From assembly GCF_002930645.1 (NCBI RefSeq), contig NZ_PSNW01000001.1, forward strand, positions 488,600 to 552,599: a stretch of DNA of 64,000 nucleotides. The letters are read 5' to 3'. Every line of letters begins with the position of its first letter. Position 1 is the first letter of the stretch. Positions 2 through 14,615 of this stretch are shown piece after piece. A model generated the notes under the pieces. It was not told the DNA's origin and made no database searches. It was given only the letters and a program-made list of their open reading frames with translations. Origin of the DNA: Solimonas fluminis. GTDB lineage: Bacteria; Pseudomonadota; Gammaproteobacteria; Nevskiales; Nevskiaceae. The translations under genes were made by a program, and so were the position numbers.

Positions 2-3000
2 GCCGTGCAGGGCCGCCGCGAAAAGGTGGCCAAGGAGATCGCCGGTTTCGCCGGCGTCACCATCGCCAACCACAACGCTCCCGAGCAGTGCGTGATCTCC
101 GGCCCCAAGGCCCAGGTCGAAGCCGCGGCGAAGAGGCTGGGCGAAGCCGGCCTGCGCGCGACGCTGCTGCCGGTGTCGGGCGCTTTCCACACGCCGCTGG
201 TCGCCAGCGCCAAGGCCGCACTGTCGGCGGCGATCCACGCGACGAAGTTCGCCGCTCCGCAGCTTGCCGTCTTCTCCAACCAGACCGCCAAGCCCTACCC
301 GGCCAAGCCCACCGCGATGCAGGCGCAGCTCGACGAGCACATGCTCAGCAGCGTCGAGTTCGTGTCCGAAGTAGAGGCGATGCATGCCGCCGGCAGCCGC
401 GTCTTCCTGGAGCTGGGCCCCAAGGGCATCTGCTCCAACATGGCCAGGCAGACCCTGGCGGGCAAGGATGCGCAGGCCATCGCCCTCGACGGCAACGGCG
501 GCGGCCTTCGCGGCCTGCTGCTGGGCCTGTCCGAACTGTTCACCGCCGGCGTGAAGTGGCAGCCCTCTGCCCTGTTCGCCCACCGCGACCTCGCCCTGCT
601 CGATACCCACCAGCTGACCGAGCTGGCCAAGCCGCGCGTCGTGCCCAAGCACATGTGGCTGCTCAGCGGCGGCTGTGCCCGACCGATCGACGATCCGCTG
701 ATGCGCACCGGCAGCCAGCCGGCACTGACGCAGGCCTCCGCCGAGGCCGCGCGCAAGGTGCAGCACGACAAGCTCGTCGCCTCGCTGCCGCGCCCGGCTC
801 CGACCGTGATCCACCAGCCTGTCGCCGGTGCCCCGCAGATGCCGGTCGCACCGGCGCTGGGCAACGAAGCCCTGGTCGCCTACCAGCAGACCATGCGCCA
901 GTTCCTGAGCCTGCAGGAGCGCGTGGTGCAGCAGTTCCTCGGCGGCGCCGCGCCCGGCGCGATGCCGACGATGCCGGTCGCCATGCCGCAGATGCCGGTC
1001 ATGCCCGCCCCCGCCGTGCCGGCGCCGGTGGTGCCGCTTGCCGCCGCTCCAACGGCGGTGCCGGTGCAGCGCGCGATGCCCGTCGCCGCCCCCGCCCCGG
1101 CCGCCGTGCAGGCCGCCGCGCCCGCCTTCGACGCCCGCGAGGCACTGCTGGCGATCGTCGCCGAGCGCACCGGCTATCCGACCGACATGCTCGGCATGGA
1201 TGCGGACCTGGAAGCCGATCTCGGCATCGACTCGATCAAGCGCGTGGAGATCCTCGGCGCCCTGCAGAAGGCGCTGCCCGGCAGCACCGGCGCGCAGATG
1301 CAGTCGGTAATGGAGCGCTTCACCAAGTCCAAGACCCTCAACGCGATCCTGGCCGAAGTGCAGCCGCTGCTGCCGGCGCAGGCCGCCGCACCGGTCGCTG
1401 TACAGGCAGGGGCTGCAGCCCCTGCCGCGCCGGCCATCGACTACAGCGCCGCGCTGCTGGCCATCGTCGCCGAGCGCACCGGCTACCCGGTGGAGATGCT
1501 CGGCATGGACGCCGACCTGGAAGCCGATCTCGGCATCGACTCGATCAAGCGCGTGGAGATCCTCGGCGCCCTGCAGCAGTCGCTGCCGGCCGCCGCCGGC
1601 TCGCAGATGCAGTCGGTGATGGAGCGCTTCACCAAGTCCAAGACGCTGTCGGCGATCCTCGCCGAACTGCAGCGCCTGGTTCCGGCCGCCGCGCCCGCCA
1701 CCGCCACCGCCACCGCCACCGTGACGGTCGCCGTCGCCGCGCCCGCCGCCGCGGCCAGCGACTACACCGCGACGCTGCTGGCGATCGTCGCCGAGCGCAC
1801 CGGCTACCCGGTGGAGATGCTCGGCATGGACGCCGATCTCGAAGCCGACCTCGGCATCGACTCGATCAAGCGCGTGGAAATCCTCGGCGCCCTGCAGCAG
1901 TCGCTGCCGGCCGCCGCCGGCTCGCAGATGCAGTCGGTGATGGAGCGCTTCACCAAGTCCAAGACGCTGTCGGCGATCCTCGCCGAACTGCGCCGCCTGG
2001 CACCCGCGCTGAGTACTGTGGTCACTGCTTCCGTCACTCAGCACTCAGCACTCAGCAATCAGAATTTCGTGGAGTTGCTGACCGCCATCGTCGCCGAGCG
2101 CACCGGCTATCCGCCGGAGATGCTCGGCATGGAAGCCGACCTCGAAGCCGACCTCGGCATCGACTCGATCAAGCGCGTGGAAATCCTCGGCGCGTTCCAG
2201 AGGGCCCTGCCCGCTGAACTCAGCGCGCAGATGCAGGCCGCCATGGAGCGCTTCACCAAGTCCAAGACGCTGTCGGCGATCCTTGCCGAACTGCGCCGCC
2301 TGGCACCCGTGCTCAGTGCTGAGGACTCGGCGCTGGGTACAGTGGTCACTGCTCCCGCCACTCAGCACTCAGCGCTCAGCACTCAGAACTTCGTGGAGTT
2401 GCTGACCGGCATCGTCGCCGAGCGCACCGGCTATCCGCCGGAGATGCTCGGCATGGAGGCCGACCTCGAGGCCGACCTCGGCATCGACTCGATCAAGCGC
2501 GTGGAAATCCTCGGCGCCTTCCAGAAGGCCCTGCCCGCCGAACTCGGTGCGCAGATGCAGGCCGGCATGGAGCGCTACACCAAGGCCAAGACGCTGAGCG
2601 CGATCCTCAGGGCGCTGGACGGCCTGCAGGCCCCGGCGGCCGCCGCGGTCGCGGCCAGCGTCGCCGCTGCACCGCAGTTGCAGGCTGCCGCCGCGGCCGC
2701 CCCGGCGGCCGCCACGCCACGCTATGTCATCAAGTCGCGGCTGGCACCGCTGCCGGCCGCCAGCGTCAAGCTGTCCGGCCTGGCCATCGTGCTCGGCGGC
2801 GCGCTGCCCGTGGCCAAGCTGTTGCTGGCCGAGCTGAAGTCGCGCGGCATGACTCCGGTGCACGTCAGCGACAGCGAGCCGGAGAAGCTGCGGGCCGCCA
2901 TCGCCGCCGCCCGCGCCAAGCACGGCCCGGCCAAGGCCCTGTTGCAGATCAACGGCCTGGATCGCCGCAAGATCGCCGACCTCGCCGCCTGGAAGGCGCG

Positions 3001-5182
3001 CTACTCGCTGGATGCCCTGAGCCTCTACCACGGCCTCAAGGCCCTGGCGGCGGACCTGGAAACGGCGCGTGTCATCGGCGCCAGCCGCTTCGGCGGCAGT
3101 TTCGGCCGCGATTCCGTGGGCAAGGGCGCCGCCTCCGGCGGCGCGCCGAACGGCGTCTTCAACTGCCTGCGCTACGAGTACCCGCAGGCGCTGATGCGCG
3201 CGGTGGACTTCGACGGCCAGTCCGACGAGGACATCGCCCGCCTGATGGTGGATGAACTGGCCTCCGACTGCCGCGAACCGGAAGTCGGCTATGTCGGCGC
3301 GCTGCGCCACGGCAGCGTCACGTCCAGCCAGCCGCTGACCGCCAGCCCCTTCCCCGCCTCGGTCATCCCCAGCGGCGACTGGGTGGTGCTGGTCACCGGC
3401 GGTGCGCGCGGCATCACCGCCGAGATCGTCGAGGAACTGGTGCGCCCCGGCATGCGCCTGGTGCTGCTGGGCCGCACCGCGGCACCGGGCCCCGAATCCG
3501 CCGAGACCAGAGCCCATGCCGACGCCGCGCAGCTCAAGGCCGCGCTGCTCAAGGCGCGCATGGCGCGCGGCGAGAGGCCCAAGCCGGTCGAGATCGACCG
3601 GGAGGTCTCGCGCATCCTGGTGGACCGCGAGATTCGCGCCAACCTGGCGAAACTGGCTGCCGCCGGCGCCCAGGTCGAATACCTGGCCTGTGACGTGCGC
3701 GACGAGGCCGCCTTCGGCGGGCTGATCGACGGGCTCTATGCCAAGTACGGCAACATCGATGCCGTGCTGCATGGCGCCGGCGTGATCGAGGACAAGCTGT
3801 TCGTCGACAAGACGGCGGAGTCCTTCGAGCGCGTGCTGGGCACCAAGCTCGATGCCGCTTTCCTGCTGTCGCAGCGCCTGAAGCCGCAGAACCTCAAGCT
3901 GCTGGCCTTCTTCACCTCGGTGGCTGGCCGCTACGGCAACCGCGGCCAGAGCGACTACGCCGCCGCCAACGAAACGCTCAACCGCCTCGCCTGGCAGCTT
4001 CACCGCGAGTGGCCGCAGACCCGCGTGATCGCCGTCAACTGGGGGCCCTGGGACGCCGGCATGGCCAGCGAGGGCGTGCGCCGTGCCTTCAAGGAACGCG
4101 GCATCGAAGCCATCCCGGTCCCCTCGGGCCGCCGCTTCTTCCTCGACGAGATCGCCTACGGCCCGCGCAACGACGTGGAGATCGTGGCCGGCGCAGGCCC
4201 CTGGTACAAGCCGGAGCAGGATGCCCCCGAGGCGGCTGTCGCCGCGCCTGCCGCCACGCCCAGCGGCCTGCCGCTGATGCAGACGGCGCCGCGCATGGGC
4301 CCGGGCGGCAACATGATGCTGGAGCACACCTTCTGCCTGAGCTCCGACCCCTACCTGCTCGACCACCGCCTGGACGGCAAGGGCGTGCTGCCCGCCACCG
4401 GCGCGCTGGAATGGATGGCGCAGTTCGTCACCGCCGCCTGGCCAGGCTGGCACGTGGTGGAGATGCGTGACCACCGCGCGCTCAACAGCGTGATGCTCGA
4501 CCCCGAGGTCAACGGCGGCAAGCGCACGGTGCAGCTGCGCGCCCGCGCCTCCTCGCATTCGGACCTCAACGGCCAGACCATCACGGTGGAGATCATCGAC
4601 CCTGCCAAGAAGCTGCCGCTGTACCGCGCCACCGCGGTCCTGGCGCAGACGATGCCCGAACCGCCGGCGGTGAACGTCGAGGCGCTGAGCGGCGCCAAGC
4701 CGTTTGCCGCCACCGACGCCTACGCCCACTTCCTGTTCCACGGTCCGCGCTTCCAGCTCGCCTCCGAGATTCCGGCGGTCGCCGAAGGCGGCCTCGACGC
4801 CCGCGTACGTCCGAGCCTTCCCGGCGAGTGGCTGGCCGATGCGCAGGGCGGCTGGCTGTTCGATCCGGCGCTGTGCGACGTGGCGCCGCAGATGGCCATC
4901 GTCTGGTCGCGGCTCAACCGCAACATGACGGCCCTGCCCTCCGCCTTCGCCTCGGTGCGCCGCTACGGCAGCGACCCGCTGCCGAAGACGCTGCGCCTGG
5001 CGCTGCGCCTGCTGCCGGCGCCGCACGAATCGGCGATGGTCTACGACGCGCTGTATCTCGACGACAGCGGCCGCGTGCGCGTGGAGATGCGCCACTGCGA
5101 AGCCACCATGAGCGCCGCGCTGAACCGCCTCGGCGGCCAGGCGGCGGCAACCGTGAAGAACCAGCCCTCGGACCGCGCCTGA
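2..5182 (+). CDS. Iterative type I polyketide/PUFA-like synthase, C-terminal part: AT-5xACP-KR-DH (5' truncated by window)
   Basis: Multidomain synthase that loads, carries, ketoreduces and dehydrates an acyl chain. The reading frame is open at the window edge, so the amino terminus, where a KS and the AT Ser would be expected, is missing. What remains starts in an acyltransferase (GAFHTPLV, His near residue 63 of the fragment). Five acyl carrier domains follow, each with LGIDSIKR; the Ser codons are at 1232, 1541, 1862, 2165 and 2489. Next comes a ketoreductase (GGARGIT; SDY with Tyr near residue 1319) preceded by a structural half-KR, then a hot-dog dehydratase (LDHRLDGKGVLP, His near 1455; possible Asp near 1626). 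KS-AT-ACPn-KR-DH is the known architecture of PfaA-type PUFA synthases. The stop is one base before the next start, so the two are co-translated. The product is unknown. A PfaD-like enoyl reductase is not in the window. Confidence 0.9.
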   Translation, partial: AVQGRREKVAKEIAGFAGVTIANHNAPEQCVISGPKAQVEAAAKRLGEAGLRATLLPVSGAFHTPLVASAKAALSAAIHATKFAAPQLAVFSNQTAKPYPAKPTAMQAQLDEHMLSSVEFVSEVEAMHAAGSRVFLELGPKGICSNMARQTLAGKDAQAIALDGNGGGLRGLLLGLSELFTAGVKWQPSALFAHRDLALLDTHQLTELAKPRVVPKHMWLLSGGCARPIDDPLMRTGSQPALTQASAEAARKVQHDKLVASLPRPAPTVIHQPVAGAPQMPVAPALGNEALVAYQQTMRQFLSLQERVVQQFLGGAAPGAMPTMPVAMPQMPVMPAPAVPAPVVPLAAAPTAVPVQRAMPVAAPAPAAVQAAAPAFDAREALLAIVAERTGYPTDMLGMDADLEADLGIDSIKRVEILGALQKALPGSTGAQMQSVMERFTKSKTLNAILAEVQPLLPAQAAAPVAVQAGAAAPAAPAIDYSAALLAIVAERTGYPVEMLGMDADLEADLGIDSIKRVEILGALQQSLPAAAGSQMQSVMERFTKSKTLSAILAELQRLVPAAAPATATATATVTVAVAAPAAAASDYTATLLAIVAERTGYPVEMLGMDADLEADLGIDSIKRVEILGALQQSLPAAAGSQMQSVMERFTKSKTLSAILAELRRLAPALSTVVTASVTQHSALSNQNFVELLTAIVAERTGYPPEMLGMEADLEADLGIDSIKRVEILGAFQRALPAELSAQMQAAMERFTKSKTLSAILAELRRLAPVLSAEDSALGTVVTAPATQHSALSTQNFVELLTGIVAERTGYPPEMLGMEADLEADLGIDSIKRVEILGAFQKALPAELGAQMQAGMERYTKAKTLSAILRALDGLQAPAAAAVAASVAAAPQLQAAAAAAPAAATPRYVIKSRLAPLPAASVKLSGLAIVLGGALPVAKLLLAELKSRGMTPVHVSDSEPEKLRAAIAAARAKHGPAKALLQINGLDRRKIADLAAWKARYSLDALSLYHGLKALAADLETARVIGASRFGGSFGRDSVGKGAASGGAPNGVFNCLRYEYPQALMRAVDFDGQSDEDIARLMVDELASDCREPEVGYVGALRHGSVTSSQPLTASPFPASVIPSGDWVVLVTGGARGITAEIVEELVRPGMRLVLLGRTAAPGPESAETRAHADAAQLKAALLKARMARGERPKPVEIDREVSRILVDREIRANLAKLAAAGAQVEYLACDVRDEAAFGGLIDGLYAKYGNIDAVLHGAGVIEDKLFVDKTAESFERVLGTKLDAAFLLSQRLKPQNLKLLAFFTSVAGRYGNRGQSDYAAANETLNRLAWQLHREWPQTRVIAVNWGPWDAGMASEGVRRAFKERGIEAIPVPSGRRFFLDEIAYGPRNDVEIVAGAGPWYKPEQDAPEAAVAAPAATPSGLPLMQTAPRMGPGGNMMLEHTFCLSSDPYLLDHRLDGKGVLPATGALEWMAQFVTAAWPGWHVVEMRDHRALNSVMLDPEVNGGKRTVQLRARASSHSDLNGQTITVEIIDPAKKLPLYRATAVLAQTMPEPPAVNVEALSGAKPFAATDAYAHFLFHGPRFQLASEIPAVAEGGLDARVRPSLPGEWLADAQGGWLFDPALCDVAPQMAIVWSRLNRNMTALPSAFASVRRYGSDPLPKTLRLALRLLPAPHESAMVYDALYLDDSGRVRVEMRHCEATMSAALNRLGGQAAATVKNQPSDRA

Positions 5183-5183
5183 G

Positions 5184-8100
5184 ATGACCCAGCCACTGGA
5201 TATCGCGATCGTAGGCCTAGCCGGCGTCTACCCGGGCGCCGGCAGCGCGCGGCACTACTGGCAGAACATCCTCGACAAGATCGACGCCACCAGCGAGGCC
5301 GACCCGGAATGGGTCGGCCCTTACTACGAACCCAACAGCACGCGCGAGGACCGCATCTACACCACGCGCGGCGGCTTCCTGGGCGAGCATGCGCGCGTCA
5401 ATCCGCAGGACTACGGCGTGATGCCGAACGTGGCCGCGGGCAGCGACCCGGACCATATGCTGGCCCTGAAGGTGGCGCACGACGCCCTGGACGACGCCGG
5501 CTACCTGCACAAGCCCTTCGACCGCGAGCGGGCCGGCGTGATCATCGCGCGCGGCACCTACGGCAACCGCGGCATGGCCGGCCTGATGTCCCGCAACTGC
5601 TTCCTGGACCAGGCCATGGACCTGGTGCGCGGACTGCGCCCGGACTTCAACGAGAACGACATCCTCCGGCTGCAGAATGCGCTCAAGGCGCAGCTGCCGC
5701 CGTTCAACGCCGAGCACATCGGCGTGCTGACGCCCAACGTCATCGCCGGCCTGATCGCCAATCGCCTCAACCTGATGGGGCCCAGCTACATCGTCGATGC
5801 CGCCTGCGCATCGACGCTGATCGCAGTTGAGCAGGCGGCGTCGGCGCTCAGCAGCGGCCGCTGCGACCTGATCATCACCGGCGGCTCCCAGGTGCATACG
5901 CCGCCGCAGCTGTTCATCCAGTTCTGCCGCATCGGCGCGCTGTCGCGGGACCGCATCCGCCCCTTCCAGAAGGGCTCTGACGGCACCCTGCTGGGCGAGG
6001 GCATCGGCATGCTGGTGCTCAAGCGCCGCGCCGACGCCGAACGCGACGGCGACCGCATCTATGCCGTGATCCGCGGCGTCGGCACCGCCAGCGACGGCCG
6101 TGCCAAGGGCCTGCTGGCGCCGCGCCTGGAAGGCGAGATTCTGGCCATGCGCCGCGCCTACCAGAGCAGCGGCATCGACCCGATGACGATCGACCTGATC
6201 GAGGCGCACGGCACCGGCACCGCGGTGGGCGACAAGACCGAGATCGAGGCGCTCACCCAGATCTACGGCGCCCGCGGCCACGACCCGCAGGTCGCCATCA
6301 CCGCGGTCAAGTCGATGATCGGCCATTGCATGCCGGCCTCCGGTGGCGCTGCGCTGATCAAGACCGCGCTGGCGCTGCACCACAAGGTGCTGCCGCCGAT
6401 GCTCTGCGACACCCCGGACCCGAACCTGGGCCTGGAGAAGACGCCGTTCTACCTCAACACCGAGACGCGGCCCTGGCTGCACGGCAAGGATCATCCGCGC
6501 CGCGCCGGCGTCAACGCCTTCGGCTTCGGCGGCATCAACGGGCATGTCATCCTGGAGGAGTACCGCGAGCATCGCCCGGTACAGATGCAGGTCCTGCATG
6601 CCCCCAGCGATTCCGAGCTGGTGGCGCTGGCGGCGGAGTCGCGCGAGGAGCTGCTGCAGCGTGCCCGCGCGGCGCTGGCGCACCTCAGGACCGCGACGCT
6701 TCCGGAGGTCGCCAAGGCCTGCGGCACCTACGGCCGCGGCCCCTTTCGCCTCGCCATCGTCTGCGCCGATGCCGCCGATCTGGAGCGCAAGCTGAACCAG
6801 GCGATCGAGAAGATCGAGCGCCCCGACGTCAAGCCCTTCAAGACCCGGGCCGGCATCAACTACGGCGCCGGCGAAGTGGCCGGCAAGCTCTGCCTGCTGT
6901 TCCCGGGCGAGGGCTCGCAGTACCCGAACATGCTGGCCGACCTCTGCGTGCACTTCCCGCAGGTGCGCGACTGGTTCGACTTCATCGAGCAGAACGCCAC
7001 CCGCCGCGGCAGCCCCTCGCGCGTGCCCGCGCTGCTGCCGCCCCCGACGGTGCTCAGCGAGGAGGCCCGCAAGCAGCTGGAGGAGCGCCTGTACGAGATG
7101 GACGTGGCGGCGGAAGGCGTGTTCGCCGCCAGCCTCGGCCTGCATGCGCTGCTGCAGGATCTCGGCTTCCAGCCGGATGCCATGCTGGGCCACAGCACCG
7201 GCGAGAACACGGTGCTGACCGCTGCCGGCATGAATCGCGTGCGCCACCGCGCCGAGACCGCCGACGCGGTGCAGGTGTTCAACCGCATCTTCAACGAGCT
7301 GGACGCCGCCGGGAAGATCGCGGAAGGCTCGCTGCTGACCATCGGCGGGCTGACGCCCTCGCTGCGCGCGGCGCTGCTGGCCGACCTCGGCGAGATGCAC
7401 CTGGCGATGGACAACTGCCCCAACCAGCTGGTGCTGTTCGGACCGCCGCAGGCCGCCCACAAGCTGCACGAGCAGCTCAGCGCCGAAGGCGCGATCTGCC
7501 AGGAGCTGCCCTTCGGCCGCGCCTACCACACCGCGCTGTTCAAGCCGCTGGCCGATGCCTTCCGCGGCTACTTCAAGACCCTGGACCTGGGCGCCGGCAC
7601 GACGACGGTCTACAGCGCCTCGACCTGCGCGCCCTTCCCCGCCGACGCCGACGGCATCCGCGAACTCGCGGCGCGGCAGTGGGAGCACCCGGTCCGCTTC
7701 ACCGAGACCATCCAGCGGCTCTACGAGGACGGCTACCGCGTGTTCCTGGAGGTCGGCCCCAGCGGCAACCTGACCTCCTTCGTCGGCGATACCCTGCGCG
7801 GCAAGGACGACGTGCTGGCGGTATCCAGCAACAGCCGCCGCAAGCCGGGCATGGCACACCTGCACCAGACCCTGGCGCAGCTGTTCGCCGCCGGCGTCAG
7901 CTTCGACCCCTCGCGCCTGTTCGCGCATCGCAAGGTCGCCGATCTCGACCTGCTGGGCGAACCGCGGGCCGCACCCAAGCCGCTGCCGCGCATGAAGCTG
8001 GTGAACCCGGTGTGGCAGCTGCCGGAGGAATGGAAGAAGCCGCTGCCGCAGGCCGTGGCTCCCACCGCCGCGCCGGCACCGGTTCCGGTTGCGGCTCCCG

Positions 8101-10007
8101 CGCCAGTCGCCGCCTCCGCCGCGGCAGCCGCGCCCGCCGATCCGCGGCTTGCGGCGCTGAACGCGCATTTCTCGCTGATGCAGGACTTCCTCGACAGCCA
8201 GGCCCGCGTGCTCGGCCTGGCCGGCGGCGGCGCGGCGATGCCGCCGGCGGCCGCCTCCCCGTCCGCCGCACCGGCGGGCTTCGACCCGGCCTTCCCGCTG
8301 CTGGGCCCGGTGGAACTGTCGGGCGGCAGGCTGTCGTCCGAACGCCGCTACACCCTCGAGCAGGACCTGTTCCTGCGCGACCACACGCTGGGCGACGCGC
8401 CCAGCGCGGCGGACCCGGCGCTGACCGGCCTGCCCGTGATCCCCTTCACCTACAGCATGGAGCTGATCGCCCAGGCTGCGGTGCGCCTGTCCGGCCGCGG
8501 CGACCGCGTGGTCAGCGCCATCGAGAATGCCCGCGGCAGCCGCTGGCTGTCGCTGGACGACGGTGCCATAACGCTGCGCGTGCTCGCCGAGGCGGCGCCG
8601 GGCAATCCCGATGCCGTCGCCTGCCGCGTGTTCCTGCTCGGCGAGGGCAGCACGCCCGGCGGCCTGCTGGTGTTCGAGGGCACGGTGCTGCTGGCGGCCG
8701 GATACCCCGCCGCGCCGGCGCCGCTGCCGCTGTCCCCTGCCGGCCTCCGGCCGCCGCACATCCACCTGCCCGGCCAGCTCTACCGGCACGGCATGTTCCA
8801 CGGCCCGCGCCTGCAGGGCGTGGCGCGCATCGACGGCTACGGCGAACAGGGCATCGTCTCCGAACTGGTGACGATCCCGGTGCACGACTACTTCGCCGGC
8901 ACCCCGGCGCCGCGCTTCCAGCTCGACGCCGCGCTGCTCGACGCCGCCGGCCAGCTGGCGGGCTTCTGGCTGCGGGAACGCAACCCGGGCGTGCCCAACT
9001 GCTTCCCGTTCCGCGTGAAGCGCCTGTCGCTCTATGCCCCGCCACCGCCGCCGGGCCAGCGCTACAGCTGCCATGGCGCGATCACCCTGCCCAGCCCCAC
9101 GGTGCTGGAAGCGCGCTGGGACGTGGTCGGCGCCGACGGCCGCCTGCTGCTGCGCGCCGAGGGCTGGGAAGACCGCGTGTTCAGCGGCGACGAGCGCTTC
9201 TTCGGCTTCCGCCTGGACCCGGCGCATGCGCGCCTGTCCGAGCCGGCGCTGTCCGGCCAGTTGCCGGCGGAACTCTGCCTGCGCCGCATCGAGCCCCTGC
9301 CCGAGGGCACGCTCGACGAGGGCGGCACCATCTGGAAGCGCATGCTGGCCCACATGGTGTTGAGCCGGCGCGAGCGCGCCGTGTTCAACGCCCTGCCGCA
9401 GCAGGGACCGCGCCGCGAGGAATGGCTGATGGGCCGCCTGGCTGCCAAGGACGCCGCGCGCGACTGGTACCGGCTGCGCACCGGCACCGAGCTGGCGCCG
9501 GCCGACGTGGAGATCGAATCCGACGCCAGCGGCCGGCCGCGGGTGCGCTGCCCGGCCCTGCCCCAGGTCGGCGCCCCGGTGCTGTCCATCGCCCATAGCC
9601 GGCGCTGGGCCTACGCCGTGGCCAGCGACCCGAGCGTGGCGCTGGGACTGGACTACCAGCGGGCCGACAACCTGCGCACCGAGGACGTGGCCGCCGGCGG
9701 CTTCTCCGCCGCCGAGCAGGTCTGGTTCCAGGGCACCGACAGCGCCGAGCGCAGCCGCATCGTGCTGGCCCTGTGGTGCGCCAAGGAGGCCGCCGCCAAG
9801 GCCGCGGGCACCGGCCTGAACGGGCGCCCGCAGGACTGGCAGGTGGTCGCCGCACAGCTGGACAACCGCCTCGGCGGACCGCAGATGGCGCGAGTGCGCT
9901 ACAGCGGTCAGGATTACGATGTCGCCCTGCATGCCGAGCCCGGCCAGGCCATGCTGGCGCTCTGCGTCACCGCCGCGCCGCGGGCCGAACAATGGCGGCC
10001 CGCCTGA
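5184..10007 (+). CDS. Type I polyketide/PUFA-like synthase KS-AT-DH with C-terminal 4'-phosphopantetheinyl transferase
   Basis: A 1607-residue protein combining chain condensation, dehydration and, by inference, activation of its own carrier domains. The ketosynthase (about 5-455) has the full triad: Cys208 in DAACAST, His342 in EAHGTGT and His381 in MIGHC. An acyltransferase follows with Ser671 in GHSTGE and His782 in GRAYHT. After an Ala/Pro-rich linker (about 960-1060) comes a dehydratase with His1067 in LRDHTLG and probable Asp1253 in LLDAAGQ. The last about 200 residues are a Sfp-type phosphopantetheinyl transferase: LGLDYQRAD (Asp1490) and WCAKEAAAKAAG (Trp1531, Lys1534, Glu1535). In Pfa systems the PPTase is usually a separate protein (PfaE) or sits elsewhere, so this fusion is notable. 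No second KS-like chain-length factor was found. Confidence 0.92.
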   Translation: MTQPLDIAIVGLAGVYPGAGSARHYWQNILDKIDATSEADPEWVGPYYEPNSTREDRIYTTRGGFLGEHARVNPQDYGVMPNVAAGSDPDHMLALKVAHDALDDAGYLHKPFDRERAGVIIARGTYGNRGMAGLMSRNCFLDQAMDLVRGLRPDFNENDILRLQNALKAQLPPFNAEHIGVLTPNVIAGLIANRLNLMGPSYIVDAACASTLIAVEQAASALSSGRCDLIITGGSQVHTPPQLFIQFCRIGALSRDRIRPFQKGSDGTLLGEGIGMLVLKRRADAERDGDRIYAVIRGVGTASDGRAKGLLAPRLEGEILAMRRAYQSSGIDPMTIDLIEAHGTGTAVGDKTEIEALTQIYGARGHDPQVAITAVKSMIGHCMPASGGAALIKTALALHHKVLPPMLCDTPDPNLGLEKTPFYLNTETRPWLHGKDHPRRAGVNAFGFGGINGHVILEEYREHRPVQMQVLHAPSDSELVALAAESREELLQRARAALAHLRTATLPEVAKACGTYGRGPFRLAIVCADAADLERKLNQAIEKIERPDVKPFKTRAGINYGAGEVAGKLCLLFPGEGSQYPNMLADLCVHFPQVRDWFDFIEQNATRRGSPSRVPALLPPPTVLSEEARKQLEERLYEMDVAAEGVFAASLGLHALLQDLGFQPDAMLGHSTGENTVLTAAGMNRVRHRAETADAVQVFNRIFNELDAAGKIAEGSLLTIGGLTPSLRAALLADLGEMHLAMDNCPNQLVLFGPPQAAHKLHEQLSAEGAICQELPFGRAYHTALFKPLADAFRGYFKTLDLGAGTTTVYSASTCAPFPADADGIRELAARQWEHPVRFTETIQRLYEDGYRVFLEVGPSGNLTSFVGDTLRGKDDVLAVSSNSRRKPGMAHLHQTLAQLFAAGVSFDPSRLFAHRKVADLDLLGEPRAAPKPLPRMKLVNPVWQLPEEWKKPLPQAVAPTAAPAPVPVAAPAPVAASAAAAAPADPRLAALNAHFSLMQDFLDSQARVLGLAGGGAAMPPAAASPSAAPAGFDPAFPLLGPVELSGGRLSSERRYTLEQDLFLRDHTLGDAPSAADPALTGLPVIPFTYSMELIAQAAVRLSGRGDRVVSAIENARGSRWLSLDDGAITLRVLAEAAPGNPDAVACRVFLLGEGSTPGGLLVFEGTVLLAAGYPAAPAPLPLSPAGLRPPHIHLPGQLYRHGMFHGPRLQGVARIDGYGEQGIVSELVTIPVHDYFAGTPAPRFQLDAALLDAAGQLAGFWLRERNPGVPNCFPFRVKRLSLYAPPPPPGQRYSCHGAITLPSPTVLEARWDVVGADGRLLLRAEGWEDRVFSGDERFFGFRLDPAHARLSEPALSGQLPAELCLRRIEPLPEGTLDEGGTIWKRMLAHMVLSRRERAVFNALPQQGPRREEWLMGRLAAKDAARDWYRLRTGTELAPADVEIESDASGRPRVRCPALPQVGAPVLSIAHSRRWAYAVASDPSVALGLDYQRADNLRTEDVAAGGFSAAEQVWFQGTDSAERSRIVLALWCAKEAAAKAAGTGLNGRPQDWQVVAAQLDNRLGGPQMARVRYSGQDYDVALHAEPGQAMLALCVTAAPRAEQWRPA

Positions 10008-10044
10008 TTGCCCTGACAAAATTCCCCCTCGAGAAGACACGATC

Positions 10045-11646
10045 ATGACCACGACCCTGTTCATTGGCCTCGACGGCTGCACCTTCACCGTGCTGGACGA
10101 AATGACGCGCGACCTGCCGGGAGAAGGCGTGACCATGCCCTTCCTGGCCTCGCTGATGGCCAAGGGCGTCCGCGCCAAGCTGCGCTCCACCCCCAATCCC
10201 CTGACCCCGCCGGCCTGGACCAGCATCATGACCGGCAAGGGCCCGGGCGAGCACGGCGTGTTCGAGTTCATCCGCGCCGAGGACCACGGTGCCGAGGTCT
10301 ACTGGACGCTGTACGACGCGCGCGACGTCGATGCCGAGACCATCTGGTCGATCGCCTCGCGCAAGGACAAGAAGATCGCGGCGCTGAACTTCCCCCTGAC
10401 CGCGCCGGCGCCCGAGGGCATCAACGGCTCGATCGTGCCCGGCTTCATCCCCGCCAAGCACCTGCGGCGCAACACGCATCCGCGCGAGCTGTTCGAGCGC
10501 ATCAAGACCGACGTGCCGGGCTTCGATCCCAAGGAGCTGGCCTGGGACTTCGACAAGGAGAAGCAGGCCATGGAGTCGCTCTCGGCCACCGAGACGGCCA
10601 AGTGGGTGCGCTACCACCTGCCCCGCGAGGAGCAGTGGTTCAAGGTGGCCGAGTACATCCTGGGCAGCGACAAGCCGGACCTGATGGCGGTGATGTTCGA
10701 CGGCACCGACAAGATCCAGCACCAGGCCTGGCCCTGGCTGGACAAGGACCTGCTGCCCAAGGACCCTCAGGGCCACGACAAGGAGATGCGCGAGGTCTGC
10801 CTCGAGTACTTCCGCAACCTCGACGGCTACATCGAGAAGCTGGTGACCATGGCCGGCCCGGACACGCAGGTGTTCTTCGCCTCCGACCACGGCTTCACCG
10901 CCAGCAACTTCGTGCTGCGCATCAATACCTTCCTGGGCGAGAAGGGCTACCTGACCTGGGGCAAGAACGACGGCAGCGAGCAGGCCGTGCGACGCGAGGC
11001 TTCCGACTTCGCCAACCTCGACTGGTCCAAGACCCTGGCCTACTGCCAGACGCCGTCGTCCAACGGCATCGTCATCCGCGTGGCCGAGAAGCCGGGCGAC
11101 GCCGGCATCAAGCCCGAGGAATACGAGGCCTTCCGCGAGAAGCTGATCGCCGACCTCTACACCATCACCGACCCCAAGACCGGCAAGCCGGTGGTGATCG
11201 ATGTGCTCAAGCGCGAGGACTGGTTCGCCGGCCAGCACATGAAGCGCGCGCCGGACCTGACCCTGGTGCTGAGCGACCATGGATTCGTGTCGATCCGCAA
11301 CTTCGAGCCGGTGGTGGCCCACCGCCCCGCCGCCATCGGCACGCACCATCCGGACGGCATCTTCATGGCCTGCGGCCCCGGCATCGCCGCCAGCGGCATG
11401 GTGGAACGCCGCCAGATCGTCGATGTCGCCCCGACGCTGCTGCACAGCCTCGGCCTGCCGATCCCGGCGGACTTCGAGGGCAGGCCGGCCGAGACCTTCT
11501 TCGAGGCCGGGTGGCTGGCCGCGCACCCGATCAAGAAGGGCGCGCGCACCAAGGCCCCGCAGAAGAAGGAACTCAAGGAAGAGATGGATTCGGGCGAGAA
11601 GCAGCAGATCATCGAGCAGCTGCAGATGCTGGGCTACATGGAGTGA
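10045..11646 (+). CDS. Alkaline phosphatase superfamily protein (type I phosphodiesterase/nucleotide pyrophosphatase-like)
   Basis: A 533-residue metal-dependent hydrolase of the alkaline phosphatase fold. Visible signatures are an early metal-ligand segment (LFIGLDGC, Asp10), the probable nucleophile stretch PPAWTSIMTG (Thr59 likely), FDGTDKIQH, SDHGFTAS and THHPDG near the end. These match the two-metal ligand set of type I phosphodiesterases. There is no signal peptide, so it is probably cytoplasmic. It starts 37 bp after the synthase gene, with GAGAAG upstream of the ATG, and its stop overlaps the next start (GTGA). Its place in the operon suggests it acts on the synthase product or on a phospho- or pantetheine-linked intermediate. 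The substrate cannot be read from sequence. Confidence 0.85.
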   Translation: MTTTLFIGLDGCTFTVLDEMTRDLPGEGVTMPFLASLMAKGVRAKLRSTPNPLTPPAWTSIMTGKGPGEHGVFEFIRAEDHGAEVYWTLYDARDVDAETIWSIASRKDKKIAALNFPLTAPAPEGINGSIVPGFIPAKHLRRNTHPRELFERIKTDVPGFDPKELAWDFDKEKQAMESLSATETAKWVRYHLPREEQWFKVAEYILGSDKPDLMAVMFDGTDKIQHQAWPWLDKDLLPKDPQGHDKEMREVCLEYFRNLDGYIEKLVTMAGPDTQVFFASDHGFTASNFVLRINTFLGEKGYLTWGKNDGSEQAVRREASDFANLDWSKTLAYCQTPSSNGIVIRVAEKPGDAGIKPEEYEAFREKLIADLYTITDPKTGKPVVIDVLKREDWFAGQHMKRAPDLTLVLSDHGFVSIRNFEPVVAHRPAAIGTHHPDGIFMACGPGIAASGMVERRQIVDVAPTLLHSLGLPIPADFEGRPAETFFEAGWLAAHPIKKGARTKAPQKKELKEEMDSGEKQQIIEQLQMLGYME

Positions 11647-12443
11647 GCGCGGAAGCCGCCAAGCCTTCCGACGACGGCACGCTGGATTCCAGGCAGCTGC
11701 TGGACCTCGGCATGGAGGCCATGGGGGCCACCGGCCTCTATGGCGTCATCGACTTCGAGCGGCCCAGCTACCTGTTCGCGCCCCGGCGCATCAAGAACTG
11801 CAGCTTCGGCGCGTTCTCCTACGTCAACGGCATGTACACCAGCAGCCTGTACGACACGCGCGTGGGCCGCTACTGCTCGATCGCCGAAGCCGCCATCGTC
11901 GGGCCCTACGAGCATCCGACCGACGGCCTGTCGACGCACACCTTCGCCTTCTGCTCGCCGGAGGATTTCCCGCCCTTCGCCGTGTTCCAGGAGTTCAAGG
12001 ACCTGACCACGGTGTCCAAGCGCGAGGTCAACCGCGAGTTCACCGAGATCGGCCACGACGTCTGGATCGGCGCCGGGGCCTTCGTCAAGCGCGGCGTGAA
12101 GATCGGCGACGGCGCCGTGGTGGCCGCGCACGCCCTGGTCACGCGCGACGTGCCGCCCTACGCCATCGTCGTGGGCCAGCCCGCCAAGGTCACCCGCCTG
12201 CGCTTCGACGAGAAGATCGTGGAGCGCCTGCTGAAGCTGCAGTGGTGGCGCTACAATCTCGCCCCGCACAAGAACGAGCTGGACTACAGCCGCATCGAGG
12301 CCTCCCTGGAGGGCCTGGAGCAGCGTCTCGCCGAGGGACGCCTGCAGGAGCTGCAGCCCGAGACCTGGCGACTGCACAAGGTGCGCTACCAGGTACGCTT
12401 CCGCCCCGAGCGGCTGCCGCAGCCGCTGTACCGCTGGCCTTGA
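11643..12443 (+). CDS. CatB-like hexapeptide-repeat acyltransferase
   Basis: A 266-residue left-handed beta-helix acyltransferase of the xenobiotic/CatB O-acetyltransferase type. The hexapeptide region runs from IKNCSFGAFSY to HDVWIGAGAFVKRGV and VVAAHALVTRDVPPYAIVVG; VGQPAK at the end of the helix is typical of the family. The carboxy-terminal about 80 residues are helical and charged. The start is a GTG at 11643 that overlaps the upstream TGA as GTGA, so it is translationally coupled to the phosphodiesterase gene. In this operon it may add an acyl group to the polyketide-derived lipid, or move the chain from the ACP encoded next door. That role is inferred from context only. Confidence 0.85.
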   Translation: MSAEAAKPSDDGTLDSRQLLDLGMEAMGATGLYGVIDFERPSYLFAPRRIKNCSFGAFSYVNGMYTSSLYDTRVGRYCSIAEAAIVGPYEHPTDGLSTHTFAFCSPEDFPPFAVFQEFKDLTTVSKREVNREFTEIGHDVWIGAGAFVKRGVKIGDGAVVAAHALVTRDVPPYAIVVGQPAKVTRLRFDEKIVERLLKLQWWRYNLAPHKNELDYSRIEASLEGLEQRLAEGRLQELQPETWRLHKVRYQVRFRPERLPQPLYRWP

Positions 12444-12497
12444 TTGCCGGCCGGGAACGCTGCCACTGAACACCACTACGACAACAGGCAAGAAGCC

Positions 12498-12782
12498 ATG
12501 AGCAAGTCCGACGTCTACGTCACCAAGCTGATCGAGCTGCTGAAGGATTTCACCCAGGACTGGGACAACGAGTTCGACGGCGAAATGGGCCGCGGCACCA
12601 AGCTGCTGGGCGACCTGAGCTTCGAGTCCATCGACATCATCCAGCTGATCGTGGCGATCCAGGAAGACATCGTCGGCGGCAAGCTGCCGTTCGAGAAGCT
12701 GCTGATGAAGGACGGCCGCTACGTGGACGACCTCTCCGTCGGCCAGATCGCCGAGTTCCTGGCCGCGAACATCCCGGGTTGA
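12498..12782 (+). CDS. Acyl carrier protein-like, stand-alone
   Basis: A 94-residue acidic protein with the acyl-carrier fold. The attachment Ser is probably Ser44 in DLSFESIDIIQL, a variant of the usual DSL motif with ESI. The helix before it (VTKLIELLKDF) and the later acidic helix (VGQIAEFLAANI) fit the family. The ATG at 12498 follows an in-frame ORF extension that looks non-coding. It is the last plus-strand gene of the synthase operon, 54 bp after the acyltransferase. Likely role: carrier for a starter unit or for the released chain before final transfer; this is inference. It should be a substrate for the fused PPTase. Confidence 0.82.
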   Translation: MSKSDVYVTKLIELLKDFTQDWDNEFDGEMGRGTKLLGDLSFESIDIIQLIVAIQEDIVGGKLPFEKLLMKDGRYVDDLSVGQIAEFLAANIPG

Positions 12783-12863: not shown

Positions 12864-13685
12864 TCAGGCCTTGCGCGCCACCACCAGCACGTAGTCCTCG
12901 CCTGCGTCGATCAGGCCGCGCAAGCGCGCCACCGACTTTTCCACTTCGGCCGCCCGCGCGCCCTGCAGGCGCCGGCCGGCCCGTTCGAAGGCATCGACGA
13001 AGGGCCGGCGCGTCCAGTCGACGATCGATTCGATGCGGATGGCGCTGAAGCCGGCCGCCCGCAGGTGCGCGGCATAGGCGTCGGCGTCGTAGGCGTTGGC
13101 GGGATTGTCGAGGCAGACCCCGGTGCCGACCGCCGTGAGCCCCAGCAGGTAGGCCGCCGGATCGACGCCGCGGCGCGGAATCAGGTCCGTCAGGGCCAGC
13201 GTGCCGCCCGGCCGCAGCACGCGCGCCGCCTCGCGCAGGAAATCGGCGCGGGTATCGAAATGGAAGGCGCATTCGACCGACATCAGCTTGTCGAAGCTGG
13301 CGTCGGCGAACTCCATGCCCGTGGCATCGCCCAGGCGCAGGTCGACCTGGTCGGCGAAGCCTCGTTCGCGCACGTAGTGGCGCCCATGCTCCAGGCGGAG
13401 TTCGGTGACGTCGATGCCGACGATGGACTGCGGCTGGAAGCGGCGCATGCAGGACACCGCGCCGGCACCATAGCCGCAGCCGACATCGAGCAGCCGATCC
13501 CGGGCGGAGAGTCCGCAAGCGGAGGCCACCAGGATCGTCAGCGCCTCGGCAGCCTCTTCCATGGCCATGTCCGGCCGCGTCCAGTAGCCGTAGTTGGCGA
13601 AGGGCTGCTGGCCGAAGAGATCGCCCCGCTGCTCATGACGGCGCGTGTAGTGCCGCGCCACGTCCTGTGTGTGCGTCGTCTGCAT
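12864..13685 (-). CDS. Class I SAM-dependent methyltransferase
   Basis: A 273-residue methyltransferase. The SAM site is clear: DVGCGYGAGAVSC (motif I) near residue 67, then GIDVTELRLEHGR (post I), LRLGDATGMEFADASFD (motif II) and LRPGGTLALTDLIP (motif III). The amino-terminal NYGYW segment and overall layout resemble small-molecule C- or O-methyltransferases of the UbiE/RebM/sterol type. It is convergent with the ACP gene (81 bp apart) and divergent from the hydrolase gene with a 79 bp shared upstream region. It could act on the polyketide product, but the opposite orientation means it may be independent. The substrate is not determined. Confidence 0.85.
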   Translation of the reverse strand: MQTTHTQDVARHYTRRHEQRGDLFGQQPFANYGYWTRPDMAMEEAAEALTILVASACGLSARDRLLDVGCGYGAGAVSCMRRFQPQSIVGIDVTELRLEHGRHYVRERGFADQVDLRLGDATGMEFADASFDKLMSVECAFHFDTRADFLREAARVLRPGGTLALTDLIPRRGVDPAAYLLGLTAVGTGVCLDNPANAYDADAYAAHLRAAGFSAIRIESIVDWTRRPFVDAFERAGRRLQGARAAEVEKSVARLRGLIDAGEDYVLVVARKA

Positions 13686-13764: not shown

Positions 13765-14601
13765 ATGACCACCCGCCCCAAACTGGCGCATCAGCAACTC
13801 GGCAGCGGGCCTGACGTCGTGCTGGTGCACGGCCTGGCTGCCAATCGCGCGTTCTGGTACCCCCTGGCGACCGCCTTGTCGTCGCAGTACCGCGTCACAA
13901 TCTATGACCTGCGCGGGCACGGCTACAGCGAACGACCGACCAGCGGCTACACGGCAACCGACCAAGGGCAGGACCTGCTGCAGCTGATGGACGATCTAGG
14001 CCTGGAAGAAGCCGCCGTCATCGGCCACAGCTACGGCGGCGCCGCCGCGCTCGAGGCCGTGCTGCTGCAGCCGCAGCGCTTCAGCCACCTGGCCCTGATG
14101 GATACCCGCATCCAGCGCCTGCAATCGGAATTGCGTTTGCACGATGTGGGCCAGCTCACCGCCTTCGAACAGGCCGTGGCCCACCAGGATGGTGGCGACT
14201 GGGCCAGCGAACCGGAAGTCGGCTTCCGCTTCCTGGAGGCCGCGGCACGCAACCGCGTCGCCGGCATCGAGCTGGAGGCGGGCGGCGAATTCGTTCCCTT
14301 CGGGGAAGGACGCGGCGCGCTGCGCGCCGCCAAGCAGTGGCTCGGCCTGCTCGAGGACACCAGCCTGCGCCAGGATTTCCGGGTGCCGGGCGGCGAGGCC
14401 GAGGCCTACGCGAGCATCCGCCAGCCGACGCTGCTGATGTATCCCAGCCACTCGCGCTCCGGCGCCACGGCCTCGCGCCTGCAGGCGCTGCTGCCGAACG
14501 CCCGGCTGGTGAACCTGCCGCAGTCCGGTCACTTCTTCCCGGTCACCCACCCGGCGCAGGTCCGTGCCGAGGTCGAGGCGCTGCTGCGCAGCTCGCAATA
14601 G
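13765..14601 (+). CDS. Alpha/beta hydrolase
   Basis: A 278-residue hydrolase with the standard alpha/beta fold. It shows VVLVHGLAANRAFW (oxyanion HG), YDLRGHGYSERP, the nucleophile elbow IGHSYGG and a late His in LPQSGHFFPV. The start chosen is the ATG at 13765, since the open frame upstream lacks family similarity. No signal peptide is visible, so it is cytoplasmic. The CoA-transferase gene follows after 14 bp, suggesting one transcript. Candidate activities are esterase, lactonase or C-C bond hydrolase; sequence alone does not decide. Confidence 0.85.
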   Translation: MTTRPKLAHQQLGSGPDVVLVHGLAANRAFWYPLATALSSQYRVTIYDLRGHGYSERPTSGYTATDQGQDLLQLMDDLGLEEAAVIGHSYGGAAALEAVLLQPQRFSHLALMDTRIQRLQSELRLHDVGQLTAFEQAVAHQDGGDWASEPEVGFRFLEAAARNRVAGIELEAGGEFVPFGEGRGALRAAKQWLGLLEDTSLRQDFRVPGGEAEAYASIRQPTLLMYPSHSRSGATASRLQALLPNARLVNLPQSGHFFPVTHPAQVRAEVEALLRSSQ

Positions 14602-14615
14602 ATACAGGAACGCTC

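Follow-up and report, generated by a model that had tools for sequence, protein, structure and literature searches.

What does the two-gene synthase of this locus make, and does it activate its own carrier domains? The window studied here is a stretch of 64,000 nucleotides from the 4.67 Mb draft genome of Solimonas fluminis (G000:C1:488600-552599; G and L numbers label genomes and loci). Two synthase genes in it, gene 1 and gene 2, form with their neighbors cluster 1, or the cassette, and the family to which we refer is Nevskiaceae, represented by 58 genomes. A preliminary description had read the locus as an operon like those for polyunsaturated fatty acids (PUFA) or heterocyst glycolipids (hgl), with a fused phosphopantetheinyl transferase (PPTase) serving the synthase's own carriers. 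Our analysis indicates that the pair probably constitutes a synthase of the secondary-lipid class: an iterative fatty-acid/polyketide enzyme of type I, divided over two polypeptides, with the mechanism proposed below.

The complete gene 1 product has the order ER(a)-ER(b)-KS-AT-5xACP-KR-DH (ER, enoyl reductase; KS, ketosynthase; AT, acyltransferase; ACP, acyl carrier protein; KR, ketoreductase; DH, dehydratase) in 3107 amino acids (aa), and its frame is cut by the window edge. The 1381 residues encoded upstream (G000:C1:484458-488600) comprise two nitronate-monooxygenase/FabK-like barrels and the first KS; residues 1-684 match nitronate monooxygenase and FabK (NCBIfam) and split into the two barrels, after which KS1 follows. 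Barrel a by itself gives a nitronate monooxygenase match below the cut-off (Pfam, 23.4 bits vs 28). Gene 2 encodes KS-AT-DH-PPTase. On the + strand the order is gene 1, gene 2, phosphodiesterase, hexapeptide acyltransferase and free ACP, tightly coupled: 1 base separates the two synthase genes, 37 bases lie before the phosphodiesterase, the hexapeptide gene overlaps it by 4 bases, and 54 bases precede the free ACP. All of these elements, including the AT-5xACP-KR-DH part of gene 1 that lies in the window, are where the preliminary description had placed them; the upstream extension that it proposed recovered the amino part of gene 1, and no PfaD-type ER was found there. No separate PPTase was found beside the synthase at the locus, and no enoyl reductase was found among the flanking genes scanned, which were part of the total.

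Judged by aligned residues, catalytic motifs are present across both synthase proteins except in ER(a). In the alignments of loci, Cys-His-His is kept in 31/31 rows of both KS1 and KS2, the Ser, Tyr and Asn of KR in 30/30, and the Asp of DH2 in 31/31, with the DH2 His invariant in a separate 19-row alignment. The catalytic His is present in 33/34 rows of ER(b), with one gap. Since ER(a) has Trp at this position in the window and His in none of 31 rows, it looks non-catalytic. The ERs of thraustochytrids form a heterodimer according to a 2026 study, which assigns the catalytic role to the His conserved in xEAGGH (PMC13311796). By sequence the ER is nearest to FabK; its PDB sequence matches are FabK and nitronate monooxygenase, with no PfaD among them at E 0.001, and NCBIfam gives FabK only. 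A model of the 684 ER residues from the Solimonas SE-A11 orthologue (mean predicted local distance difference test score, pLDDT, 91.7) retrieved FabK-type barrels at PDB ranks 1-14, with template modeling (TM) scores of 0.84-0.86 by target length and 0.38-0.42 by query length. PfaD ranked below FabK (E 4e-9 and weaker, TM 0.40-0.42 by target length), and PfaD chains are longer.

These features bear on whether the locus encodes a genuine PUFA synthase of the eicosapentaenoic/docosahexaenoic acid type with rearranged genes. Both gene 2 and the portion of gene 1 inside the window have the PfaA model TIGR02813 as their top NCBIfam match, the whole of gene 1 passes the cut-off of this model (1434.4 bits vs 1010.1), and tandem ACPs are present; gene 1 shares the KS-AT-tandem ACP-KR core with the Pfa synthases of Types A and B, in which PfaA has the order KS-MAT-ACP(4-6)-KR. 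However, gene 2 alone reaches 569.5 bits, under the cut-off, and gene 1 differs from PfaA in having the ER fused in front and a DH behind. The DH of PfaC (KS-CLF-DH2; CLF, chain-length factor) is FabA-like. In contrast, even with the threshold set at E 10 no FabA-like model was found for the DH regions here (program filters drop most matches above E 0.1), and these regions match PKS-type (polyketide synthase) DH plus one sub-cut-off ApeP-like DH. Both KS domains carry the active-site Cys, so there is no CLF, and the ER matches FabK ahead of PfaD. The PPTase is fused instead of being encoded by a separate pfaE. On the FabA-like DH, CLF and PfaD tests we rejected a PUFA synthase in the strict sense, a reading that is now very improbable, and with it this part of the preliminary description; its broader assignment to secondary-lipid synthases agrees with an iterative enzyme whose PPTase, fused to KS-AT-DH, has intact motifs.

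The synthase has two ACYLTRANSFERASES of differing kind, with the malonyl arginine in AT1 and not in AT2. In malonyl transferases such as FabD, this arginine holds the malonyl carboxylate. It is present in 31/31 rows of AT1 and in 0/38 rows of AT2, where 24 rows have another residue and 14 a gap. The Ser-His pair is kept in 31/31 rows of each AT in the locus alignments, and the AT2 Ser and His are kept in 38/38 rows of a larger alignment. Because the malonyl arginine is gone while Ser and His are kept, AT2 is probably active on an acyl group other than malonyl.

In the fused PPTase, both AcpS-like halves match AcpS/Sfp structures, and the motifs AHS, GLD and WCAKEAAAK are intact in the window. 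The domain has motifs P1a and P1b' and no P1b (SGRP and LSIAH, corresponding to xGxP and hShxH). This class, shared by Type M and gene 2, was reported for Types M, N, O, P, R, S and T (Shulse and Allen, PMC3098273) and is therefore not specific to Type M. The motifs are kept in 37/45 family genomes, 36 by script plus G031; the last motif of G031 has R in place of K, for which the script scored it as degenerate, but we counted it as intact because the glutamate is kept. These results suggest that the fused PPTase likely activates the synthase's own five carriers.

The cassette is widespread in the family. At E 1e-20, the DH-PPTase profile matches 48/58 family genomes, and 10/58 have none. A single match spans at least 453 of the 569 profile positions in 46/48; in G018 the match is divided over two frames, and G021 has a DH fragment only, at a contig end. 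Four matches (G038, G040, G043 and G047) contain one read-through TGA and have intact PPTase motifs, and G054 and G056 have the second kind of cluster only. The phosphodiesterase is found in 45/58 genomes at E 1e-60 and lies within 1.2 kb of the DH-PPTase in 44/45; the exception, G026, has the two genes on two contigs. Leaving out G026 with its cut contig, 12 family DH-PPTase copies have no adjoining phosphodiesterase. The frequency and linkage of both genes in the family argue that the cassette is old. In an even sample of the class, the DH-PPTase profile, scored on only three candidates per genome, was found in 9/370 genomes, including S. fluminis and one other family member. The phosphodiesterase was found in 3/276 at E 1e-15, S. 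fluminis included; of the other two, G331 has a phosphodiesterase with 58% identity right behind a KS-AT-DH-PPTase frame and G116 only a relative of 28-30%. Of the named genomes found to carry the cassette, those of Solimonas sp. are nearest, reaching 90% identity in the best-matching segment of gene 2. Among 74 loci, the KS-AT-DH-PPTase frame is present in 15/15 of L010-L024 (Nevskiaceae and near relatives), which places it beyond chance, and in 7/7 Streptomyces loci (L025, L026, L029-L031, L033 and L034). Desulfoluna (L027) has a PPTase remnant without motif, and in Desulfobacter (L028) no PPTase was found; L032 is a second copy in the L014 genome, and 49 of the 74 loci (L035-L083) match mainly via KS.

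This distribution also bears on whether the cluster encodes a polyene or enediyne-like iterative PKS making a pigment or antibiotic. The enediyne synthase CalE8 is likewise iterative type I with a PPTase domain within the synthase, and has KS, AT, ACP, KR and DH domains (PMC3107222). However, no ER is among the domains listed for it there, whereas the window encodes two proteins with five ACPs and an ER that has its catalytic His, and the family-wide retention of the cassette with the phosphodiesterase is unlike a sporadic antibiotic cluster. We consider such a product unlikely.

A tree of 75 KS rows, with several unresolved forks and long branches, places KS1 and KS2 in separate clades. The lineages group alike within the two: Nevskiaceae cluster 1 stands apart from a set made up of Streptomyces, Desulfoluna/Desulfobacter and the second S. 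fluminis cluster. Next to the Nevskiaceae KS1 is a row from a Rhodobacteraceae plasmid (L086), on a long branch, and a third group of KS1 consists of the Type P rows. The agreement between KS1 and KS2 is consistent with joint inheritance, and the two synthase genes have probably been passed on together over a long period, as far as the tree can tell.

The phosphodiesterase, the hexapeptide enzyme and an upstream sulfatase-like gene, which belongs to the cassette because it is conserved with the synthase, are tied to Nevskiaceae, which bears out the proposal of a lineage-specific variant in the preliminary description. None of the three had a match in L020 (Abyssibacter) or L019 (a short contig), and G331 has the phosphodiesterase with no hexapeptide match within the stretch read. 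In every compared locus having it, the phosphodiesterase is closer to the window copy than any synthase segment. Its mean column identity is 85% over 14 rows, in which Thr54 and Asp/His positions that we take, from their roles in this superfamily, to be metal ligands are invariant. A PDB sequence search gave nothing for the phosphodiesterase or the upstream sulfatase-like protein.

The α/β hydrolase is a further cassette member, outside the earlier list. Its serine is kept in 31/32 aligned rows and its His in 21/32 (the other 11 gapped), and it adjoins the same kind of synthase in other lineages. The serine of the free ACP is conserved in 23/23 aligned rows; no Pfam model matched this protein at E 0.1, PHROGs gave nothing useful, and the NCBIfam ACP match is weak (E 0.001). 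Both genes are beside the pair in a Streptomyces plasmid (L089, whose annotation agrees), Abyssibacter (L020), the distant members of the class G331 and G399, G056 and the second S. fluminis cluster; one of them in L025, L027, L086, G063 and G080; neither in L084 and G176. Because the hydrolase and free ACP recur in several lineages and AT2 is not of the malonyl type, a release device involving both is plausible, so that the distinct release step suggested earlier survives as a candidate. For the S-adenosylmethionine (SAM) methyltransferase between them, a match at the same spot was found only in L010, L011, L015, L021 and L022 among L010-L034, and thus its membership of the cassette is doubtful.

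In the mechanism that we propose, the five ACPs, and perhaps the free ACP as well, would receive phosphopantetheine from the fused PPTase. With malonyl units loaded by AT1, KS1 and KS2 would extend the chain, which KR, DH1/DH2 and the flavin mononucleotide (FMN)-dependent, FabK-like ER(b) would reduce, fully or in some rounds; ER(a), being without the catalytic histidine, would probably be a structural partner. The product would be a long, mostly saturated, perhaps hydroxylated acyl chain and not a cis-PUFA. AT2 would shuttle the finished chain, or else a starter, between the ACP array of gene 1 and the free ACP, and the α/β hydrolase would free or edit the chain. The hexapeptide acyltransferase and the two enzymes of the alkaline-phosphatase superfamily would act on the head group, assembling or trimming it, to give a polar lipid that may be a standing trait of Nevskiaceae.

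Several points weigh against this scheme. The product is not readable from the sequence and is a candidate lipid only, and the roles given to the phosphodiesterase, whose AlphaFold model is poor (mean pLDDT 57.8), and to the hexapeptide enzyme are guesses. DH1 is gapped at the catalytic His and Asp in 4/16 loci (the Panacagrimonas/Stagnimonas group), through loss or trimmed hits, and contains a weak sub-cut-off ApeP-dehydratase match (E 0.0044). The AT2 alignment is gapped around the arginine position. In PUFA synthases, PfaB is a terminal acyltransferase in which Tyr replaces the His of GHSxG (PMC12895367); AT2 has this His (37/38), unlike PfaB, so that its transfer role is an analogy of function only. 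The fused PPTase is degenerate in 8/45 family genomes, all of genus g6, which retain the cassette; self-activation is therefore dispensable there, and S. fluminis itself carries a separate Sfp-type PPTase.

In g6 the AHS-type motif has become SEH or SAD and WxxKE has become xxxKR; in one of the eight genomes (G026) the contig ends before the last motif. A count from PF01648 frames by which some g6 genomes were without a fused PPTase was rejected, as the domain is present but degenerate. Retention of a degenerate domain, with a separate Sfp-type PPTase in seven of the eight genomes (the eighth is 88% complete), would fit an arrangement in which a separate PPTase activates the synthase and the fused domain is structural or serves acyl transfer. 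Against this stand the 37 genomes with kept motifs: of the 33 classified, 20 have a separate Sfp-type PPTase and 13 have none among PF01648 hits, and decay is not significantly associated with a separate enzyme (7/8 vs 20/33, p 0.23). The sorting was by motif on PF01648 hits alone and left G005, G032, G033 and G034 unassigned (the last three look AcpS-like). Activation by a separate enzyme as the general arrangement is therefore rather unlikely. The separate Sfp-type enzyme of S. fluminis matched 2 of 10 genomes searched (its own and one congener) and none of the eight degenerate g6 genomes at E 1e-5, so the separate g6 PPTase is a different gene. Going by these motif assignments, the fused PPTase is the sole Sfp-type enzyme found in some genomes and is dispensable in others. 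The congeners G000, G048, G049 and G050 have one separate Sfp-type enzyme each, and no AcpS-type holo-ACP synthase was found in them with PF01648; the separate enzyme may also serve primary fatty-acid synthesis.

Few secondary lipids have known structures. The spread of the cassette through the family, with one accessory enzyme rigidly linked to it, points to a single missing lipid that is open to testing; several bacteria carrying it have named type strains. Tentatively, with somewhat less than even chances, we suggest that most Nevskiaceae use a self-activating synthase for a class of polar long-chain lipids not yet described, with a head group from a dedicated phosphodiesterase-type enzyme and a hexapeptide O-acyltransferase and with chain exit via the non-malonyl AT2 onto the free ACP, and that the fused PPTase of one genus has decayed to a non-catalytic domain kept for structure. 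Intact and decayed fused PPTases among close relatives offer a natural test of why an activator is fused at all.

Table 1. Features of cluster 1. Positions are those of the window unless a genome or locus label is given.
Feature	Position	Strand	Evidence
Gene 1, C-terminal 1726 of 3107 aa	1..5182, coding frame 2-5182 (whole gene G000:C1:484458-493781)	+	Pfam, NCBIfam, active-site residues
Gene 1 part outside the window: ER-like barrels a and b, KS1 and part of AT1			
Gene 1, AT1 end	to ~556	+	Domain coordinates
Gene 1, five ACPs	~1130-1345, 1439-1654, 1760-1975, 2063-2278, 2387-2602	+	Domain coordinates
Gene 1, KR	~3377-4129	+	Domain coordinates
Gene 1, DH1	~4265-5128	+	Domain coordinates
Gene 2, 1607 aa	5184..10007	+	Domain calls, catalytic motifs, AcpS/Sfp structure matches
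Gene 2 domains	KS2 5193-6566; AT2 6885-7877; DH2 8430-9212; Sfp-type PPTase 9303-9929	+	
Type I phosphodiesterase/nucleotide-pyrophosphatase-like protein, alkaline-phosphatase superfamily, 533 aa	10045..11646	+	PF01663, E 2.3e-42
Left-handed β-helix (hexapeptide) acyltransferase, GTG start overlapping the phosphodiesterase stop	11643..12443	+	PF00132; nearest solved relatives CatB/Vat acetyltransferases
Free ACP, 94 aa, motif LSFESID	12498..12782	+	Aligned serine; weak NCBIfam ACP match
SAM methyltransferase, between free ACP and α/β hydrolase	12864..13685	-	
α/β hydrolase (GHSYGG), candidate chain-release/proofreading thioesterase	13765..14601	+	PF00561
Sulfatase/STM4013-like gene, 293 aa	L004:12944-13825, upstream, ends 33 bases before gene 1		

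The frame directly behind the hydrolase (window 14337-16910) has 857 residues with two stretches of CoA-transferase family III, and there are relatives at the same place in L010, L011, L012, L015, L021, L022 and L024. The number of tandem ACPs found in gene 1 ranges from 1 to 5 among relatives. In L016, two frames together make up gene 1 (L016:2241-10843), and the DH-PPTase is broken between DH and PPTase in G018 (G018:C176:8245-9949); each may reflect a frameshift, a sequencing error or real fission. In Hydrocarboniphaga effusa AP103 the cassette seemingly occurs twice (L014 and L032; G006:C1 at ~27 kb and ~231 kb), ~203 kb apart and with identical match statistics, from true duplication or an assembly artefact. 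S. fluminis also has a second synthase of the same layout (G000:C34:139765-151265; L008:1766-13266), ER-ER-KS-AT-2xACP-KR plus KS-AT-DH-PPTase, whose neighbors include an ACP and an α/β-hydrolase match, a glycosyltransferase, two MacB/FtsX permeases, an outer-membrane efflux protein and two proteins with sub-cut-off condensation-domain matches. From its gene content, this second cluster looks like one whose product is a glycolipid that is made and exported.

How does the cassette compare with known systems? No literature on it in Solimonas, Nevskia or Hydrocarboniphaga was found in a search whose coverage left out most subscription journals. Clusters for hgl heterocyst glycolipids have a glycosyltransferase; none was found among the cluster 1 genes scanned. 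By description, hgl synthases (Type F) have an HglC-type KS-CLF-AT (PMC3098273); there is no CLF here.

Type P (ars; Azotobacter and Beijerinckia by PMC3098273), which makes phenolic-lipid alkyl chains feeding type III PKS, is among the closest known systems. It shares the tandem ER-KS-AT-two ACPs-KR protein, and the Beijerinckia locus read here (L084), ER-ER-KS-AT-ACP2-KR with two KAS III-like annotated genes, a glycosyltransferase and an ABC exporter, has a fused DH-PPTase protein as in gene 2 but without KS-AT in front. An Ars-like role for cluster 1 is nevertheless highly improbable: Type P has two type III PKS genes, whereas PF02797 had 0 matches in the S. fluminis genome (3/14 control genomes match), and the window synthase has a second KS-AT. 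With no type III PKS match, we set this reading aside. The available portion of PMC12358690 had nothing on ArsA/ArsD domains.

Also among the closest known systems, by published description, is Type M (Renibacterium salmoninarum, Frankia and Streptomyces avermitilis), one of the 20 secondary lipid synthase types listed by Shulse and Allen in 2011 (PMC3098273). Fused pfaDA and pfaBC-PPTase genes of Aquimarina and Flavobacterium have been likened to those of Renibacterium (PMC13291983, 2026), and by the published wording both systems have fused pfaDA-like and pfaBC-like-PPTase proteins, as does the window. The architecture is therefore published, though uncharacterised. The PPTase fusion that the preliminary description had thought unusual is already in print, also inside pfaC of one Pseudoalteromonas (PMC3098273), and we found it in Streptomyces and, as DH-PPTase, in Type P relatives; the domain order, which the description allowed might prove common and characterised, is widespread and not characterised. 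Going by the descriptions, the window differs from Type M and the flavobacterial pair in its gene 1, which has five ACPs and carries a second DH. The neighbors differ as well, being nonribosomal peptide synthetase (NRPS)/PKS genes in Aquimarina and Flavobacterium (PMC13291983) and phosphodiesterase, hexapeptide acyltransferase and sulfatase-like genes here, and the KS domains of Streptomyces loci with like architecture fall in clades apart from those of the window. Taken together, the cassette is real and conserved at the level of the family. It is a version of a kind of secondary-lipid synthase that is known though not characterised, in which the FabK-type tandem ER, the differing roles of the two ATs, the accessory set with its fixed linkage and the decay of the fused PPTase within one genus look new.

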